Shown: positions 1 to 26,243 of the stretch, one piece after another
How the letters are laid out: each line of letters opens with the position of its first letter
How positions within the stretch are numbered: the stretch's first letter is position 1
From: a virus
Virus record (IMG/VR): IMGVR_UViG_3300022074_000327
Span: 1 to 26,243 of that record
Length of the DNA: 26,243 bases
Direction: 5' to 3' (one strand)
Translations under genes and position numbers: made by a program
Notes under the pieces: model-generated
Seen by the model: only the letters and a program-made list of their open reading frames with translations
Database searches by the model: none
Told to the model about the DNA's origin: nothing

Positions 1-148
1 TAACTCTAGTTACAGGGCTTACTCCATCTGATACAGGTACATAATTATTAACTGTAACCATATAAACTGAATCATCATCAATTCCTGTTAAAACTACAGA
101 ACTAACTGCACTTGTTACTGTATTTGTTGCTACTTGTACTAATCCCAT
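1..148 (-). CDS. Tail cassette protein A1, N-terminal part only (runs off the left end)
   Basis: The first 49 codons are visible, beginning MGLVQVATNTVTSAVSSVVL; the gene leaves the window at base 1. It is clearly paralogous to the proteins at 25091-25612 and 23392-23910, sharing the opening VQVATNTV.SAV.SV.LTGID and the following VYMV strand. The start overlaps the stop of the upstream gene as TAATG, so translation is probably coupled. The family is unnamed to me. Its place after the tail genes and its beta-rich, Ser/Thr/Asn-rich composition suggest a virion tail-tip or fibre-like protein. The function is inferred; the paralogy is seen directly. Confidence 0.8.
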   Translation of the reverse strand, partial: MGLVQVATNTVTSAVSSVVLTGIDDDSVYMVTVNNYVPVSDGVSPVTRV

Positions 149-672
149 TAGCTATCAACTCTCAATCCATAAGTTCTTATAATCATTCCACTTTCCATAT
201 TGTTACCTGCATTATTTATTATTTGATAACCTCTTTCTGCTTGTGCAACTGTATGTGCATTAATACCTTTTCTGCTGTCAAAACCACTAGCTCTATCTGT
301 TGCTGATTGAAATGTGTTAAAAGTATAACTTGAACTGTTAAAAGGATTAAAGAAATATCCACTTAAACTACTTGGGCTTTGTGAATTATTACCAAAATTT
401 ATTAAATTCATAAAAGTTTTAACAGAATTAGCTTCTTGAAAAGTGTCAAAAGCTCTCATAACAAGAATTGCCCTTAAATAATTACTACTACTAACACTTC
501 CACTTGAATTAATTAATCTTATTCCAAGTGTATCCTCATTTGTGTCTGCTGATAATATATTATTTATTGTAAAATAGTAAATATCAAAATCTGCATTAAA
601 TACATTATCAATAGTTATAGAACTAACATCAGATGAATTAGTAGTTTCATTAATTAATCTTAAGTTACTCAT
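148..672 (-). CDS. Tail cassette protein B1 (putative tail-tip/fibre-like structural protein)
   Basis: This 174-residue protein begins MSNLRLINETT and ends YGLRVDS, as does its paralogue at 25612-26148; a third, more diverged relative lies at 23914-24444. A central motif, FFNPFNSSSYTFNTF, matches VFNPYSSSSYTF and VFNPNDSSSYTF in the relatives. The protein is Ser/Asn-rich, with no signal peptide or membrane segment. The first 32 bases of the gene belong to a 127-base tract identical to the right window end. The gene follows C1 with a one-base gap (TAGTATG) and overlaps A1 as TAATG. A structural or receptor-binding role is inferred from position downstream of the tail genes. Confidence 0.85.
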   Translation of the reverse strand: MSNLRLINETTNSSDVSSITIDNVFNADFDIYYFTINNILSADTNEDTLGIRLINSSGSVSSSNYLRAILVMRAFDTFQEANSVKTFMNLINFGNNSQSPSSLSGYFFNPFNSSSYTFNTFQSATDRASGFDSRKGINAHTVAQAERGYQIINNAGNNMESGMIIRTYGLRVDS

Positions 673-767
673 ACTAAATTTGTTTCACTCCAAAAAGTTT
701 TATAGTGCCTGTCATTGTACCTGAAATTGAAGTAAATCTTATTCCATCTACTGTACTAGCTTGTGGT
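641..767. repeat. 127-base exact repeat, internal copy
   Basis: It is identical to 26117-26243. It covers the last ~94 bases of C1 and the first 32 of B1. The match stops at base 640 (A, against T at 26116), and at the other side it is limited only by the window end. Confidence 0.97.
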
Positions 768-1288: not shown

Positions 1289-1615
1289 TTAGGTTTGTCT
1301 TAAGAATGAAACATTATATTCTGCACTAGAAGCTGCAGAACATAGTCCTTGCAGTTTGTCTCCTGTTTCTAGTGTTACCTTTGTTTGTATTTCAATAGTT
1401 GTTCCAAAAGGTAGTGAAACATTGTTTAAAATGTGTCTTAATGTTCCACCAGATTTTGTTACTGATAGATCTATAGTTACATCAGCACTACTTCCACTAA
1501 CATTAGATACCAGAATCCCAATTACTGTTTCAGTAGTAGAGCTAGGAACTGCATCAACAATATCTCCTGCTGATGTTCCAAGAACTCCCTGAACTGAATG
1601 TAATGTATCTGCCAT
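1289..1615 (-). CDS. Small putative virion protein, beta-rich
   Basis: This 108-residue protein begins MADTLHSVQGVLGTSAGDI. It consists of alternating hydrophobic strands and Ser/Thr/Gly turns (VIGILVSNVSGSSADVTIDL; LPFGTTIEIQTKVTLETGDK) and predicts as one compact beta-sandwich domain. There is no signal peptide or transmembrane helix. It lies between the 150-residue tail protein (stop at 1630) and cassette gene C1, with gaps of only 12-14 bases and an AAGGAAT-type ribosome site. The context suggests a tail-tip or decoration component. I do not recognise a named family. Confidence 0.8.
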   Translation of the reverse strand: MADTLHSVQGVLGTSAGDIVDAVPSSTTETVIGILVSNVSGSSADVTIDLSVTKSGGTLRHILNNVSLPFGTTIEIQTKVTLETGDKLQGLCSAASSAEYNVSFLRQT

Positions 1616-1629
1616 AATTTATTCCTTTC

Positions 1630-2082
1630 TTAAGATAGAGCTAATACTAATCCTAAAGTTACTCCTGATGGTGCAAGTGCAGCAATATCTCCTGCTGTTG
1701 TCTTTTTAAGGTTATTGCTGTCATTAATATCTCCAAACAGTATTTCATCTCCTGATGCTACTGTACCTGAAGTTGCAGAGTTTGGCTTTACACTTAAGCT
1801 AGGTGTTCCTGAAGTAGCACCACCTGCCATACCAGAAGTAGAACTTGTGGTAATTCCTAAAATATCTCCTGCTTCTGCTGTTTGCCAACTACTCCCATTC
1901 CACATTTTAATTAAATTATCTGTAGTATCTACAAACACAGTCCCCTCAACTTTATTAGTTAAAGCTGTGTTAGCTGCTGACTCTGAGGCATAAATAAAGA
2001 CTATTGAGTCTTGAATGTCTTGAAATCTAGCTTCTGTTACTAGATCTCCTGTACTCCAATCAAACCAAGCTCCTGCTGCCAT
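1630..2082 (-). CDS. Putative tail fibre or tail-tip structural protein
   Basis: This 150-residue protein begins MAAGAWFDWSTGDLVTEARF. The segment WSTGDLVTEARFQDIQDSI, followed by NKVEGTVFVDTTDNLIKMWN, resembles the N-terminal parts of phage fibre proteins, in which a short helix is followed by a 'parameter-like' beta strand ending in W-[DN]-G. The remainder is Gly/Ser/Thr-rich (SGMAGGATSGTPSLSVKPNS) and looks like a short shaft. A GGAG ribosome site sits about 10 bases before the start. It follows the 415-residue distal tail protein, where fibre genes usually lie. The fibre assignment is by motif style and position. Confidence 0.75.
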   Translation of the reverse strand: MAAGAWFDWSTGDLVTEARFQDIQDSIVFIYASESAANTALTNKVEGTVFVDTTDNLIKMWNGSSWQTAEAGDILGITTSSTSGMAGGATSGTPSLSVKPNSATSGTVASGDEILFGDINDSNNLKKTTAGDIAALAPSGVTLGLVLALS

Positions 2083-2105: not shown

Positions 2106-3353
2106 TTAAGTATAACTTATGTTTGTGTCTATTCCTAACTTAGAAACTCCTAGAATCCAAGCTCCTGTTTCTGCAGGAGATAGTCCTATTTGCCAATTCC
2201 AAGTCTTGTTTCTAGCATCTACTTTATGCTTTATTCTTTCAATAAACAAATCATAAGTTTCTATGGTGCTAGATGGTGTAGTAACTTTTGCCTCAACAAA
2301 GCTACCAATGTCTAATCCTAGTGCTTTAGCCCATAAGTTTGTGTCTTGTTGTGGAGCAAAAGATAAACTTTCAACAGTTGTTTGTGGTATTGAGTTAGCT
2401 ACTACTTTTTGTTCTGCAATAGAAGCAGCATCACTATCTTGTGTGTTTAATGTTCCAGATTCAGTTAAAACATGAGTACCAAATCTCTCTACTGAATCAG
2501 AATCTATAGCAATTTGTGTATTACTACTGCCTGTTCTAGTCCTTTGTACTGTATTAACAATTTTATTATCATCATAAGATGAAACAATATCTACATATGG
2601 CAACTCTGATCCACCCTGCCCAAAAGTAGCTGCAGGTGTAGTAGTGTTAGTTAATCTAAAATTTCTATCTCTAAATGTAGCATTACCATTAGCAGCTATA
2701 AAAAATGTACCATTTTCAGCTGTTTCCACTTTTCTTAGTGCATTTAATAGATTATCTGTTGTAGATTGTGTAGTAACTTGTAATTGTCCTGTAGATATTG
2801 CCTGATTTGAATAACCAAAGCTATCAAGTATGTTTTTAACTCTTACAGAGCTTAATTCTTGTGCTTGAGTAAGTGTAAGCCTAGTAGTAGATCCTAGCTT
2901 AGAAATACCTAACTGCCACCCAATACCATCTAAAGTAGCATTAAAAAATAATTTAAAAGCATCTACAACTCTAATTTTTGTACTTGAATCATAACCCTGC
3001 CCTGCATACTGAACAGGAAAACTCTCAACAAAACCATGAAAAAGATCATAAGTTGTAGAACTATGAGTAGCCCTGATTCTTAATCTTTTTAATGGTTGTA
3101 TTTTTGTTCTCCCTGCTGATGAATCAAAGTAATGTGTTGATTGATTAGGAGAAAACCTATTATCTCTATTATCAAGCTCTACAATAGCTGTACCTGTTTG
3201 AAAATCTGATAAGTTGCTAACTCTACCTCTTGTTGTTGTAAAGCTTCTTAAGTACTGTGAAACATCAGTAAATGTTTGAGAACTATCTAAAGGATTACTA
3301 TCAAAAGCTATTTCTACAGTTATAGATACATTAGAATCAAAATTAACAGACAT
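2106..3353 (-). CDS. Minor tail / distal tail-like protein
   Basis: This 415-residue protein sits directly after the tape measure, overlapping it as TAATG. The segment around residues 30-100 (FTDVSQYLRSFTTTRGR, then GTAIVELDNRDNRFSPN, then LKRLRIRA and TYDLFHGFVES) is a familiar layout of phage minor tail proteins: an N-terminal beta domain in which 'LDNRDNRF-P' leads to a capping strand and 'LF-G-V'. In established siphoviruses the gene after the tape measure encodes the distal tail or baseplate hub component. The C-terminal half (about residues 200-415) looks like a second beta-rich hub-like domain. The exact role (Dit versus Tal) cannot be decided by eye. Confidence 0.8.
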   Translation of the reverse strand: MSVNFDSNVSITVEIAFDSNPLDSSQTFTDVSQYLRSFTTTRGRVSNLSDFQTGTAIVELDNRDNRFSPNQSTHYFDSSAGRTKIQPLKRLRIRATHSSTTYDLFHGFVESFPVQYAGQGYDSSTKIRVVDAFKLFFNATLDGIGWQLGISKLGSTTRLTLTQAQELSSVRVKNILDSFGYSNQAISTGQLQVTTQSTTDNLLNALRKVETAENGTFFIAANGNATFRDRNFRLTNTTTPAATFGQGGSELPYVDIVSSYDDNKIVNTVQRTRTGSSNTQIAIDSDSVERFGTHVLTESGTLNTQDSDAASIAEQKVVANSIPQTTVESLSFAPQQDTNLWAKALGLDIGSFVEAKVTTPSSTIETYDLFIERIKHKVDARNKTWNWQIGLSPAETGAWILGVSKLGIDTNISYT

Positions 3354-6021: not shown

Positions 6022-6432
6022 CTAAGCAGTTCCCTCAGTTACATCTCCACTAACTTGAAAACTTGCAGAAAATGATACAGCTCCTCCAACATCTGGTGTT
6101 CTATCATAACTTGTACAAATAGCATTACCTGATGCTTTTGGATTGCCTCCTGTAGTTCCTATTGGATAGAACTCAAAAGATCCTGCTGCAGTTCCAACTA
6201 TAGCTTTGAGATAACCATCAACAGTTGCATCAAAAGATCCAGATATAGTGATAACAGCATCTTTTAGTCCTGCTACATAAGCTTTAGAACTATTAGAAAA
6301 TGCTGAAACTTCAGCTACATCAGCAGTTTTAGATATAGATACATCTGTTAAAACATTAGAAATATCTCTTAATGTTCCTCCAGAATCATCTATTTTAAAT
6401 ACTGCACTTTTTCCATGTGTAAATGTTGGCAT
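6022..6432 (-). CDS. Major tail (tube) protein, short paralogue
   Basis: This 136-residue protein begins MPTFTHGKSAVFKIDDSGG and contains TADVAEVSAFSNSSKAYVAG, a GLKDA strand turn and an ITISGSFDA strand, as in tail-tube proteins. It ends FSASFQVSGDVTEGTA. It is clearly homologous to the N-terminal ~140 residues of the 236-residue gene just upstream (6456-7166), which opens MPTFSHGKDAVILLD. Tube proteins form stacked hexamers around the tape measure. The short form may be the principal tube subunit and the longer one a decorated variant; this is inference. A GAGGATAA ribosome site precedes the ATG. Confidence 0.85.
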   Translation of the reverse strand: MPTFTHGKSAVFKIDDSGGTLRDISNVLTDVSISKTADVAEVSAFSNSSKAYVAGLKDAVITISGSFDATVDGYLKAIVGTAAGSFEFYPIGTTGGNPKASGNAICTSYDRTPDVGGAVSFSASFQVSGDVTEGTA

Positions 6433-6455: not shown

Positions 6456-7166
6456 TTATCCTTGTGCAAATCCTACTGCTGCTGTTATGCTACCAGATCC
6501 ACCAAAGGTAAGAACTGCTCTTGCATATCTTGCAGGATTACTTGCACTTGTTTTTAGTTCTGATGTTGTTCCTGTTGCCTGAGTAAATGTAATATAATCA
6601 GAAAAAGAAGCATTATCAGCACTTGTTTGTATTTTAACATCTAAAGTTGGGCTACCACTACTTACTGTACAATGCAGAACTCCTGCACCACCATTTGTAC
6701 CTGCAGCTGCAAAATCTACTGATGTTTGATTACTTGTACTTGATACAGCAGTTGGTGTAAGTAAAGACTTACCATTATAAGCATCTCCACTAAATTGAAA
6801 TGCTACAGCTACTGCAACTATTGATCCTACATCTGCTGATCTATCATAAGATGTTTCTAATGTAGTGCCAAAAGATACAGCATTCCCTCTAGTATATCCT
6901 ATTGGTGCAATAGAGAATGCTGCCCCAGATCCTCCCAACTGAGCTAAATACTCAGCATCTGAATCTGGAGATGAAGTTTCAAAGTAACCAGAAAGAGTAG
7001 CTGTGCCATCTTTTAATCCTGCTACATAGCTTTTACTAGAGCTAGAAAATGTAGAAGTTTCTGTTACATCTGCTGTAAGTGATAAGGAGGCATCTGTTAA
7101 TGTTGTTGAAAGATTAGTATTATCTAATAATATTACTGCATCTTTACCATGTGAAAATGTAGGCAT
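6456..7166 (-). CDS. Major tail (tube) protein, long paralogue with C-terminal beta domain
   Basis: This 236-residue protein has an N-terminal tube domain (about residues 1-135: MPTFSHGKDAV; STFSSSSKSYVAGLKDGTA; DRSADVGSIVAVAVAFQFSG) parallel to the 136-residue paralogue downstream. It also carries an extra ~100-residue beta-rich C-terminus (TLDVKIQTSADNASFSDYI; ARYARAVLTFGGSGSITAAV) that looks like a galactose-binding or Ig-like display domain. Such extensions often project from the outside of the tube in other phages. The ribosome site AGGAGGAGGAG lies inside the last codons (four Glu) of the small gene upstream, so the two are translationally linked. Confidence 0.85.
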   Translation of the reverse strand: MPTFSHGKDAVILLDNTNLSTTLTDASLSLTADVTETSTFSSSSKSYVAGLKDGTATLSGYFETSSPDSDAEYLAQLGGSGAAFSIAPIGYTRGNAVSFGTTLETSYDRSADVGSIVAVAVAFQFSGDAYNGKSLLTPTAVSSTSNQTSVDFAAAGTNGGAGVLHCTVSSGSPTLDVKIQTSADNASFSDYITFTQATGTTSELKTSASNPARYARAVLTFGGSGSITAAVGFAQG

Positions 7167-23059: not shown

Positions 23060-23359
23060 TTATTCAGGTTTAGGATTATCTGCTTTAACTTGTGCTATAT
23101 GATCTGCCCATGTAGTAGTGTCATTAACACCATCCCAATATTGCATATCTAGTTGATCTTGTATTGATCCATAGGCTTCTTGTCTAGCTTCAATATAGCC
23201 AAAGTTATAATCATTAAGAATAGAGTTTTTTCTGTCCTCTATTGCTTGATTATATTCTGCATCAGTAAACTCTCTAACTTCATTATTTACTTGAGCTTTC
23301 ATAGGCTTTGCAGCTTCTACCTCTGCAGTAGCTTGTTCTAGTGCTTGTTCCTCTGTCAT
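23060..23359 (-). CDS. Small virion-associated or tail-accessory protein
   Basis: This 99-residue acidic protein begins MTEEQALEQATAEVEAAKPM and contains EARQEAYGSIQDQLDMQYWD followed by TTWADHIAQVKADNPKPE. The 'R-x-x-Y-x-S-I-x-D-Q-L-D-x-x-Y-x-D ... T-T-W-x-x-x-I-x-x-V-K-x-x-x-P-K-P' pattern recurs in small proteins beside tail fibre genes of many marine phages. Here too it follows the tail cassettes. The family has no firm function known to me; a tail or fibre accessory role is inferred. GGAGA precedes the ATG. Confidence 0.75.
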   Translation of the reverse strand: MTEEQALEQATAEVEAAKPMKAQVNNEVREFTDAEYNQAIEDRKNSILNDYNFGYIEARQEAYGSIQDQLDMQYWDGVNDTTTWADHIAQVKADNPKPE

Positions 23360-23391: not shown

Positions 23392-23910
23392 TTACTTCTT
23401 TAAACCATATAAAGTGAATACACCATTGTCTATGTTTCCACTATCCATAAAATATTGCAGTCCATTTACTGTACTTGTAGAAGTAAAAACTCCTCCACCT
23501 TGTTGTCCTACTAATTCTGGTGTAGAGTTTAACTCAGCAACTTCTTTTGTCATAAAAGTATATTCTGAACTGTTGTTAGCATTAAAAACATAAATAACAA
23601 AATTAGAACTTTCCCCTGTTGCTGTTCCTATATTAGTTCCCATATCCCAACTTGTTTCATTAGTTGCAGATTGGTTAGCAAAAGCATTACCTGCTCTTAA
23701 TAATTTACTTGCTCTGTCATAATTTGCAGTTGTATTTGGTGTATCACTTTCAGTAACTCTACATTTAACATCTTCTGTGTCTGTATCACATTGTAAATTA
23801 CTTACTGTAACCATATACACATCATAAGTGCTATCAATACCTGTTAAAGTTACAGAACTTACTGCTGAACTAACTGTTGTTTCTGCTATTTTTATTAAGC
23901 TACCTGCCAT
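23392..23910 (-). CDS. Tail cassette protein A3
   Basis: This 172-residue protein begins MAGSLIKIAETTVSSAVSSV and shares with A2 (25091-25612) the segments LTGID, VYMV, TTANYDRASKLLR and GQQGGGVFTSTST, plus the core NANNSSEYTF. Differences are spread through the middle and C-terminus, so it is an older copy than the A1/A2 pair. It is the last gene of the cassette array before the 99-residue accessory gene. It is Ser/Thr/Asn-rich and predicted beta. A structural or receptor-binding function is inferred. Confidence 0.85.
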   Translation of the reverse strand: MAGSLIKIAETTVSSAVSSVTLTGIDSTYDVYMVTVSNLQCDTDTEDVKCRVTESDTPNTTANYDRASKLLRAGNAFANQSATNETSWDMGTNIGTATGESSNFVIYVFNANNSSEYTFMTKEVAELNSTPELVGQQGGGVFTSTSTVNGLQYFMDSGNIDNGVFTLYGLKK

Positions 23911-23913
23911 TTT

Positions 23914-24444
23914 TTATTTCACTCCATATACTGATATTGTTACATCAAAATTAATACTTGCATTACTACTAAAAATATTCAAACCTGTAATTTGTTCTGT
24001 TACTTTATGTACACCAATTTGCTTTACACCTCTAAATCTATTATTTGAAGTATCATATCCACCTGCACCCTGTCCAAGCATAAATGTATAACTTGAACTG
24101 TCATTAGGATTAAAGACATAAACAACACTTCCTGCATTTTCATAATTTCCTAATTGCATTGTGTCATACATATAACTTAAACTTGTAAATCTATCATTAT
24201 CAAAACTTGTTTCAGCTTTCATTAATAATCTTGCACTATCATACTCATTATCACTAATAACACTTCCCCCACTATCTATCAATCTATGTCTTAAAGAAAT
24301 AACACCTGCCCCTGTTGTTCTGTAATCAGCAGTATGTCCAACAATTTTATAAACATGATATTTATCACTAAAACAATTTGTAATACTTAAAGTATTAACA
24401 TCACTTCCTGTAGCAGATTTTATAAATTGTAAATTAGTACTCAT
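23914..24444 (-). CDS. Tail cassette protein B3
   Basis: This 176-residue protein begins MSTNLQFIKSATGSDVNTLS and shares with B1 and B2 the segments F-x-D-x-[YF]-x-[VI]-Y-[KY], R-[LF]-I-[DN]-S-[SG]-G-S-V and VFNPNDSSSYTF, with the end [IV]-Y-G-[LV]. It lacks the YGLRVDS terminus and the identical 5' boundary of B1/B2. It overlaps C3 as TAATG and precedes A3 by three bases. The role is inferred as for the rest of the array. Confidence 0.85.
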   Translation of the reverse strand: MSTNLQFIKSATGSDVNTLSITNCFSDKYHVYKIVGHTADYRTTGAGVISLRHRLIDSGGSVISDNEYDSARLLMKAETSFDNDRFTSLSYMYDTMQLGNYENAGSVVYVFNPNDSSSYTFMLGQGAGGYDTSNNRFRGVKQIGVHKVTEQITGLNIFSSNASINFDVTISVYGVK

Positions 24445-25088
24445 TATGAATATTCCTTTATGCCATATAGACTTGCAATTACTGTATCTATATTTCCTGT
24501 GTTACCAACTAATCTAATTGCATTTACAGTTTGTGCAGTTGGTTGAGCACCACTACCAAACCAAAATTCTGCTTCAGGTGTTCTAGTCCAAGACATATTG
24601 TGTGATGTTACAAAACTATATTTAGAACTATCCCCTAAATTATAAAAGTATATGTAGCCATTAGAATTTTCATTACTTGCAGTTCCCTGATTACCATTTA
24701 CTCTTATTCCTGCATAACTTGTACTCCTGTTCTCAAAAAAAGAGCCTGTACTTCTACCACTTTCAAAAGCATAATGATAACCACTTGAACTAAAAGAACT
24801 TCCACCATTGGTGCTAAATTGTAGCTGTAAAATATTTCCATCTACTATTGGTTTAAATTTTGTAAAAGTCATTAAATGAGTATTGAATTTGTTTTCTTCT
24901 ATGCTTGTAAAGTCTAATGCTGATGTTGAACTTGTAACTTCTTGTGTTTGTATTAATTCTAATTGTCCATAGTTAGTATATTTATCTGCTCTTGTTAAAT
25001 CATAAATATCAGTAGGTGTAAAGATACCTTTATTATTGCCAAAACTTTGTTCAGGGCTCTCTGGTATATATCCAAATTCACTACTCAT
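24444..25088 (-). CDS. Tail cassette protein C3
   Basis: This 214-residue protein begins MSSEFGYIPESPEQSFGNNK and has GIFTPTDIYDLTRADKY then QLELIQTQEVTSSTSALDF, matching C1 after its first ~15 residues. The centre contains YIYFYNLGDSSKYSF and the end has GSGAQPTAQTVNAIRLVGNT, comparable with GGGVLPQASTVDGIRFTSIS in C1. It is slightly longer than C1 at the N-terminus. It is the first gene of the third cassette and follows A2 directly. Its 3' end does not share the identical tract of C1/C2. Confidence 0.85.
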   Translation of the reverse strand: MSSEFGYIPESPEQSFGNNKGIFTPTDIYDLTRADKYTNYGQLELIQTQEVTSSTSALDFTSIEENKFNTHLMTFTKFKPIVDGNILQLQFSTNGGSSFSSSGYHYAFESGRSTGSFFENRSTSYAGIRVNGNQGTASNENSNGYIYFYNLGDSSKYSFVTSHNMSWTRTPEAEFWFGSGAQPTAQTVNAIRLVGNTGNIDTVIASLYGIKEYS

Positions 25089-25090
25089 AA

Positions 25091-25612
25091 TTAAACCACC
25101 CTGTACAATGTAAAAGTTCCACTTGCTATGTTTCCACCACTTTCAACAAAAAAATTTATTCCATTACAAGATTGTGCAACTGTATGTACTTCTCCACCTT
25201 GTTTTCCCATATGGGTAGAACTTGCATTTAAACCTGTCTGCTCAACAGTAATAAATGAAAATTCACTACTATTATTAAAATTATATAAATATAATATACA
25301 ATGTGCAGTTTCCCCTGTTGCATTACCTGTTCCATTTGCTAATCTCATTTCTGTTTCATTAGTAGCAGATGAGTTACTAAAAGTTGTATCAGTTCTAAGT
25401 AATTTACTTGCTCTATCATAATTAGCAGTACTGTCTGCTGAACTATCACTAGCTTTTGTTACCCTTGCAAATAAATCTTTATCATCTGTTGCAGGTATAT
25501 AACCCATAACTGCAACCATATAAACATCATCACTATCTATGCCTGTTAAAGTAACACTAGCTACTGCACTTGATACTGTATTTGTTGCTACTTGTACTAG
25601 TTGTCCTGCCAT
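25091..25612 (-). CDS. Tail cassette protein A2
   Basis: This 173-residue protein begins MAGQLVQVATNTVSSAVASV. Its first ~45 codons are close to A1 at the left end, with a 25-base stretch identical (25575-25599 and 117-141). The core has YLYNFNNSSEFSF and the middle has TANYDRASKLLRT as in A3. The start overlaps the B2 stop as TAATG, inside a 30-base block (25609-25638) identical to 145-174. The function is inferred as a tail surface component. Confidence 0.85.
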   Translation of the reverse strand: MAGQLVQVATNTVSSAVASVTLTGIDSDDVYMVAVMGYIPATDDKDLFARVTKASDSSADSTANYDRASKLLRTDTTFSNSSATNETEMRLANGTGNATGETAHCILYLYNFNNSSEFSFITVEQTGLNASSTHMGKQGGEVHTVAQSCNGINFFVESGGNIASGTFTLYRVV

Positions 25613-26148
25613 TAGCTATCAACTCTCAATCCATAAGTGCTAATCTTTCCACCACTTGCAAACTCCCCTGCACTTTCATTAAGTTCTGCTTGAAAACCTG
25701 TAATACTATTTAATTGATGTAAGACACCAATTCCTTTATACATTCTATAATTTCCACTAGGTTTTGTTGATGATTGCCACAAACAAAAAGTATAAGAACT
25801 TGAACTATAAGGATTAAATACATAAGCTACATTTCCTGCTGATTGTCCACTATCATCTAAAGAGCCAAATACATTCCACAATCTAGCTTCACTTGTACTT
25901 CTGTTTTCACTAAAACTTGCTTCTGCTTTCATAGCTTGTTGTGCATAATCATAATCACTTGCACTAATAACACTTCCACTAGAATTAATAAACCTTAAAT
26001 TAAAACCTGTTGCTGTTGAATTGTTAGCTAGATTAACAGCACCTACAATTTTATATATATCAAAATCACTAGAAAACACATCAGTAATATTTACTGTTTG
26101 AACACCTGCTGTTGTTGTAGTTTCATTAATTAATCTTAAGTTACTCAT
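25612..26148 (-). CDS. Tail cassette protein B2
   Basis: This 178-residue protein begins MSNLRLINETTTTAGVQTVN and ends ISTYGLRVDS, both ends nearly the same as B1 at 148-672, while the middle differs (for example AEASFSENRSTSEARLWNV against RAFDTFQEANSVKTFMNLI). This pattern of fixed ends and a variable body suggests exchange of gene bodies by recombination. The core VFNPYSSSSYTF is kept. Its first 32 bases are part of the 127-base repeat. Confidence 0.85.
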   Translation of the reverse strand: MSNLRLINETTTTAGVQTVNITDVFSSDFDIYKIVGAVNLANNSTATGFNLRFINSSGSVISASDYDYAQQAMKAEASFSENRSTSEARLWNVFGSLDDSGQSAGNVAYVFNPYSSSSYTFCLWQSSTKPSGNYRMYKGIGVLHQLNSITGFQAELNESAGEFASGGKISTYGLRVDS

Positions 26149-26243
26149 ACTAAATTTGTTTCACTCCAAAAAGTTTTATAGTGCCTGTCATTGTACCTGA
26201 AATTGAAGTAAATCTTATTCCATCTACTGTACTAGCTTGTGGT
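26117..26243. repeat. 127-base exact repeat, copy at the window end
   Basis: It is identical to 641-767 and ends at the last base of the window, so its true extent is unknown. A length of exactly 127 up to a sequence end is what a k=127 de Bruijn assembly leaves at an unresolved branch. Confidence 0.97.
26150..26243 (-). CDS. Tail cassette protein C2, C-terminal end only (runs off the right end)
   Basis: The visible 94 bases encode about the last 30 residues of a C-family protein and its TAG stop, identical at base level to the end of C1 (674-767). They may be a true second gene or the same locus as C1 reached from the other side of a circular molecule. The sequence alone does not decide this. 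Confidence 0.6.
   Translation of the reverse strand, partial: PQASTVDGIRFTSISGTMTGTIKLFGVKQI

Follow-up and report, generated by a model that had tools for sequence, protein, structure and literature searches.

What does it mean that the same short genes, in the same order, turn up at both ends of one assembled viral genome? The question is raised by IMG/VR virus record IMGVR_UViG_3300022074_000327, analysed here in its entirety (26,243 nucleotides, hereafter the window). A first-pass annotation had marked in it a gene triplet in the order C, B, A, had counted three copies (C1-B1-A1 on the left, a partial C2 with B2-A2, then C3-B3-A3 on the right), and had proposed that the triplet is a unit, perhaps a hetero-oligomeric tail tip or fibre set, duplicated to present several receptor-binding variants. 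Its letters and numbers are kept for the genes of the window; in relatives the number is that of the cassette, and neighbouring genes are named by protein length (g415, g150, g108, g99). The C-B-A order, the positions of the reading frames and the homology of same-letter copies are all confirmed, every A, B and C frame lying on the minus strand, which carries nearly all of the window's genes. As set out below, the genome holds two tandem cassettes rather than three, and we lean towards the view, predicted from genetics, that each C-B-A set encodes one hetero-oligomeric, lectin-like receptor-binding assembly.

How many cassettes are there? The sole long exact repeat in the window measures exactly 127 nucleotides (nt) and reaches the last base (Table 1). 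The usual largest k of common assemblers is 127, and an exact terminal repeat of this length is what an overlap in a de Bruijn graph leaves, the right end re-entering a node inside C1/B. Since the repeat is 127 nt long and sits at the contig end, what was called a “partial C2” (26150-26243) is in fact C1's terminal part, and the assembly is a circle of 25,476 nt with a 640-nt side branch. An independent contig, L007, is colinear with the window through g415, g150, g108 and C1 (6146 nt, 3 mismatches) and continues unbroken along the window's right end, through B2-A2-C3-B3 into A3 (2602 nt, 11 mismatches); identity is 99.6–99.95% over C1-B2-A2-C3-B3-A3. The true arrangement is (C1 B2 A2)(C3 B3 A3), and the 640 nt holding B1 and the A1 fragment represent another, strain-variant allele assembled behind the same C1. 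No other contig was found to carry the B1 allele, while the A1 fragment is 92–97% identical in nucleotides, over its stretch, to the A genes of L099, L161 and L237, whose B gene differs. Three sets of homologous reading frames can indeed be read in the contig, but three cassettes arising in one genome by triplet duplication are extremely improbable: the end overlap is exact, L007 passes directly from C1 to B2, no relative has three cassettes, and the two true ones are old positions. Left and right are one locus, the very outcome that, by the annotation's own account, would leave two copies. The case illustrates how a contig-end repeat can be misread as an additional gene copy. As a side observation, 10 of the 11 right-hand differences from L007 fall within about 90 nt (24972-25059) in the N-terminal region of C3, resembling a small gene-conversion tract.

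Do the three genes behave as a unit? Among non-redundant complete loci that carry the family, 41 read g108-CBA-CBA-g99 and 21 read g150-CBA-g99, so that whole triplets in fixed order are present in 62 of 62, with no partial triplet and no third cassette; one further non-redundant complete locus has no family gene. A sample fetched by g415 alone, and hence free of bias towards cassettes, gave 20 single loci, 3 double ones (L036 among them, its second C being divergent) and 4 that lack family genes. Neighbouring cassette genes overlap by 1–4 nt at their start and stop codons in most cases, which suggests coupled translation. When 16 whole records were searched, most held six or three family members and none had any elsewhere in the record; the exceptions are the window (eight, with the variant branch), one record with four, and one end-cut record of the two-cassette type with three. 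All these counts come mostly from metagenomic contigs; chimeras may be among them, and assembly is prone to break off at this locus. The claim that C, B and A form a unit thus holds, both through these all-or-none triplets and through the covariation described below.

A few loci depart from these layouts. The cassette-2 C of L036 (4402-5028) has a typical C2 N-terminus, but its core was missed by the first family search and recovered only by a C-specific profile. The record with four members, L205 (40,735 nt), possibly contains a diverged or disrupted cassette. A third layout (L020, L058, L062, L065) has no C-B-A at all, a g150-like protein of 230 or about 354–363 amino acids (aa) standing directly before g99 or g83; it is apparently an alternative recognition module. 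In L051, L060 and L035, the gene downstream of g405 occurs with either of two unrelated N-termini (MKLE..RFNS and MNKISR..WGAYPPKKNYSHNID), its C-termini being similar; this, too, appears to be a module swap.

What are the three genes to one another? Within the window, same-letter identity is 51% for A2/A3, 37% for B2/B3, 39% for B1/B2 and 36% for C1/C3, and homology also crosses the letters: with C3 as query, A3 is found at 4.5e-16, A2 at 1.7e-10, B2 at 5e-7 and B3 at 7e-5. A, B and C are three clades of a single all-beta family of about 170 aa, and because they are mutually homologous, what repeats in tandem is one gene family, with a period of three. The first reading, a repetition of whole triplets and not of one gene, is therefore right in that triplets come whole, and needs amending in that A, B and C are themselves one gene family. 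In a tree of 337 proteins from the window locus and related loci, the clades gather 118 of 118 C proteins (support 0.93), 114 of 114 B proteins (0.91) and 103 of 105 A proteins (0.74). C3 and A3 match the PHROG 14820 profile over nearly its full length (8.3e-10 and 2.2e-11), placing them in a family to which no function is assigned; B1, B2, B3, A2 and C1 do not match it. In phages, a tblastn search with C3 gave no match at 1e-3 and A3 matched pelagiphages only, weakly; a sequence-profile search of the PDB gave no credible match.

Are the two cassettes recent copies of each other? The cassette-2 genes are closer to the genes of relatives' single cassettes (C 40%, B 37%, A 47% identity) than to those of cassette 1 (34%, 33% and 40%), which suggests, as far as sequence identity can tell, that the second set corresponds to an ancestral single set and that g108 and the first set were added or replaced. 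Each of the two cassettes is a long-established position of its own, marked by its particular conserved ends, so the proposed duplication to present variants, if meant as a recent event, does not stand. C1 proteins have about 38 N-terminal residues in common (YLGTQPNDVKKNTGLYTPSEILQLTKDGSWGGSLELI), C2 proteins begin with a different N-terminus of about 42 residues, and the C of single sets is of a third type. C-terminal ends are position-specific as well: KLYGVKQI, SLYGIKEYS and SLYGIAES for C, RTYGLRVDS and SVYGVK for B, TLYKVV and TLYGLKK for A. Conservation is about 0.9 in the first fifth of C1 and C2 and 0.37–0.65 in the core. Near-identical cores can occupy different positions while the local ends are retained, as in the C1 of L135 and the C2 of L085, each with its own N- and C-termini. 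Such sharing stays within a letter: 19 of 8,892 core pairs of the same letter at different positions are at least 60% identical, against none of 27,648 pairs across letters, where the maximum is 41.7%.

A conserved frame around a hypervariable interior is also what a diversity-generating retroelement, or a dedicated hypermutation or inversion system, would leave behind. Such an origin is nonetheless extremely doubtful here. No reverse transcriptase (RVT_1) was detected in any of 16 records (the window and 15 related ones, which may be incomplete), with positive controls, and the window has no inverted repeats of at least 18 nt. The variants, moreover, differ across the whole core and are shared as alleles between phages, which fits exchange and not targeted mutation.

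How, then, do the genes travel? In 38 non-redundant two-cassette loci, g108 has a mean identity of 88% against 45% for g415, and is still about 83% identical in phages whose g415 proteins are only about 30% identical. Correlating pairwise identities over these 38 loci, we find that g415 does not covary with any cassette gene (r -0.03 to 0.04). Gene pairs within a cassette do covary (r 0.34–0.67), whereas pairs across cassettes at equal gene distance reach only 0.06–0.14, the adjacent A1-C2 pair standing at 0.14; the within-minus-across difference is 0.42 by bootstrap (95% confidence interval 0.24–0.58), and proximity alone does not account for the covariation. These values replace earlier ones (0.67–0.81 within, 0.37–0.51 across) that were inflated by near-duplicate loci. 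In single-cassette loci (20 non-redundant), mean identity is 74% for g415 and 47%, 39% and 45% for C, B and A, so that the putative recognition genes are far more variable than the flanking g415, the pattern by which a metaviromic island is recognised. Single slots are also common to distant phages (g415 26–50% identical): A1 is 88% identical between L115 and L137, C2 87% between L073 and L191, and A1 94% between L137 and L169, with g415 at 26%. L080 and L094 share g108 (100%), B1 (94%) and B2 (98%) while C1 (46%), A1 (43%), C2 (48%) and A2 (52%) have diverged. Genes are therefore also exchanged singly, and the C-B-A unit is not strictly inherited en bloc.

Could A, B and C then be independent receptor-binding proteins, each forming its own homotrimer or fibre tip, their order a matter of operon inheritance and the array a collection of several adhesins? 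Phage fibres are usually homotrimers, and the exchange of single genes between distant phages speaks for this view. We nevertheless regard this as rather unlikely, since the 62 loci hold whole triplets and never one or two of the three genes, covariation within cassettes exceeds that across them even for adjacent genes, and no core crosses letters.

Predicted structures bear on what the proteins might do. AlphaFold2 models of C3 (214 aa) and A3 (172 aa) are single all-beta sandwiches, C adding a poorly predicted N-terminus with short helices. Among solved structures, those closest in fold are GH32 C-terminal domains, galectins and legume-type lectins (Z 6–8). The best matches are to GH32 C-terminal domains, for C3 at Z 8.3 (root-mean-square deviation 3.9, 124 aligned) and for A3 at Z 8.1 (3.4, 112 aligned), galectins following at Z about 7. 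Foldseek against the PDB gave no match below 1e-3 for either model; among viral predicted structures, many phage proteins match strongly. C1q and TNF jelly-roll domains are not among the structural matches listed, which does not exclude such a fold. The genes lie in the virion-structure operon, on one strand after the tape measure and g415, and this position, the lectin-like predicted fold and the hypervariability together point to a receptor-binding role at the tail tip. Glycan binding there would be the best reading of these features together, short of a demonstration. The tail tip or fibre set imagined in the first-pass annotation fits all three features, its hetero-oligomeric nature being a prediction from sequence.

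Binding is not the only activity that has been proposed for such genes. Lopez-Perez et al. (2020; PMC7771536) describe a 29-kb phage of the Ca. Actinomarina single amplified genome AG-919-G14, and the parts of that article covered here word its variable island as sialic acid removal proteins. The contig of this phage, L146, carries the full g150-g108-CBA-CBA-g99 module as in the window, and the wording, if it refers to these genes, would speak for enzymes acting on the host envelope. On present evidence it is an improbable account of A, B and C: both models are single beta-sandwiches, and none of the three proteins has any Pfam match above family cut-off, enzyme families included. No sialidase was matched in Pfam, and the catalytic six-bladed beta-propeller of that enzyme class is not in these models, although failing to appear among hits proves nothing by itself.

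How might such a locus work? It would be the host-recognition module of a small marine siphophage-like virus, in which C, B and A, three paralogous lectin-like beta-sandwich proteins, act jointly as one hetero-oligomer at the tail tip. The simplest stoichiometry would be a C:B:A heterotrimer or a multiple of it. Position-specific N- and C-termini would set the place of each subunit, and the variable middle would bind the host surface, probably a glycan; the two sets of this phage would yield two assemblies that differ from each other. Whole sets, single genes or cores could be swapped between phages, always within a letter, by homologous recombination at the conserved ends of the genes, and the window may have captured one such swap, in which C1 is followed either by B1-A1 or by B2-A2. 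A stricter version is conceivable, though we offer it tentatively: the receptor-binding head would be an obligate heterotrimer in which the termini serve as assembly addresses and cores can be freely exchanged among proteins of one letter. With three cores to a head and two heads to a virion, recognition would then follow a combinatorial code, recombining even among phages whose tail genes are otherwise unrelated.

Several points weigh against a hetero-oligomer. A recombination hot spot between the cassettes could partly produce the within-cassette covariation, rather than contact between subunits. Swaps of single genes indicate that subunits tolerate new partners, which weakens the case for a tight obligate complex. 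The lectin fold match, at Z about 8, is at a level that common beta-sandwiches also reach, and is suggestive only. Finally, the Pelagibacter phages HTVC010P and HTVC019P have three tandem genes (about 202–217 aa) that belong to this beta-sandwich family and lie near g99-like and g108-like genes, yet the three cannot be assigned neatly to C, B and A. They belong to cultured pelagiphages with another tail architecture and are annotated as hypothetical proteins.

Has anything comparable been described? Metaviromic islands of marine phages, with hypervariable lectin-like, C1q-like and tail fibre recognition genes, were reported by Mizuno et al. (2014; PMC3909814). The shared features, in the parts of that article covered, are hypervariable host-recognition genes in otherwise similar marine phages, and a conserved N-terminus together with a variable recognition domain. 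There, however, variable genes and domains are presented by read recruitment, and those parts contain no fixed-order three-family set, no one- and two-cassette layouts and no letter-restricted core sharing. The AG-919-G14 phage, despite its module, has a g415 only about 32% identical to that of the window, and the covered text of PMC7771536 makes no mention of paralogy or cassette layout. This shared module does not fix the host of the window phage as Actinomarina, because the module moves between phages, g415 is so distant, and TerL was not found in the Actinomarina single-cell phage. Hypervariable recognition islands are thus known, while the fixed three-family, position-addressed layout appears undescribed in the open-access literature covered, as far as its accessible parts go.

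By way of analogy, and only for how such a system might work, complement C1q builds one recognition head from three related chains, its globular heads being A, B, C heterotrimers. It differs in that its homologous jelly-roll heads sit on collagen stalks, and no sequence or strong fold match linking it to A, B or C was found. What is gained is a readable grammar for one of the islands so far seen mainly as poorly recruiting stretches: three protein letters in an invariable order, present as one set or two, with ends that stay constant and cores that can be swapped. It is probably a modular means of keeping recognition in step with bacterial surfaces that change. Should the sets be heterotrimers, the host range of open-ocean phages would come from combining interchangeable subunits and not from one adhesin, and alleles could be catalogued and matched to the variable envelope-sugar islands of hosts.

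The features of the locus are collected in Table 1.

Table 1. Cassette genes, landmarks and terminal overlap in the window; gene names as in the first-pass annotation.
Feature	Position	Strand	Remarks
A1 fragment	1..147	-	Strain-variant allele of cassette-1 A; truncated by contig end
B1	148..672	-	Strain-variant allele of cassette-1 B; 39% identical to the other allele, B2
127-nt exact overlap, left copy	641..767	.	Fork between two alleles behind C1
C1	674..1276	-	Cassette 1 C; position-specific N-terminus (about 38 aa) plus predicted lectin-like beta-sandwich
g108	1289..1615	-	Small, strongly conserved; only beside the two-cassette layout
g150	1630..2082	-	Short form, 150 aa, as in two-cassette phages
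g415	2106..3353	-	Tail protein immediately after tape measure; left landmark of the locus
g99	23060..23359	-	Right landmark; immediately follows the last A in nearly all relatives
A3	23392..23910	-	Cassette 2 A; model pLDDT (predicted local distance difference test) 93
B3	23914..24444	-	Cassette 2 B
C3	24444..25088	-	Cassette 2 C; own N-terminus MSSEFGYIPESPEQSFGNNKGIFTP...; model pLDDT 85
A2	25091..25612	-	Cassette 1 A
B2	25612..26148	-	Cassette 1 B; joined directly to C1 in L007
127-nt exact overlap, right copy	26117..26243	.	At contig end; identical to 641-767

Read along the minus strand, the genes run from terminase through a portal fused to a head-morphogenesis domain, protease, major head protein, tail genes and tape measure to g415, then g150, g108 and C1-B1-A1, the last running off the left end; the right end gives the end of a C, then B2-A2, C3-B3-A3 and g99. 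For g415, 63 relatives were found in viral contigs, and it is 26% identical to a “putative tail fiber” of Pontimonas phage phiPsal1. The long form of g150, mostly 192–224 aa, is that of single-cassette phages. At the DNA level, no close phage genome was matched among 50,697 phage records. Elsewhere in the window, two adjacent homologous genes (6022-6432 and 6456-7166), with stretches of about 72–73% nucleotide identity, are probably duplicated tail-tube-type proteins.

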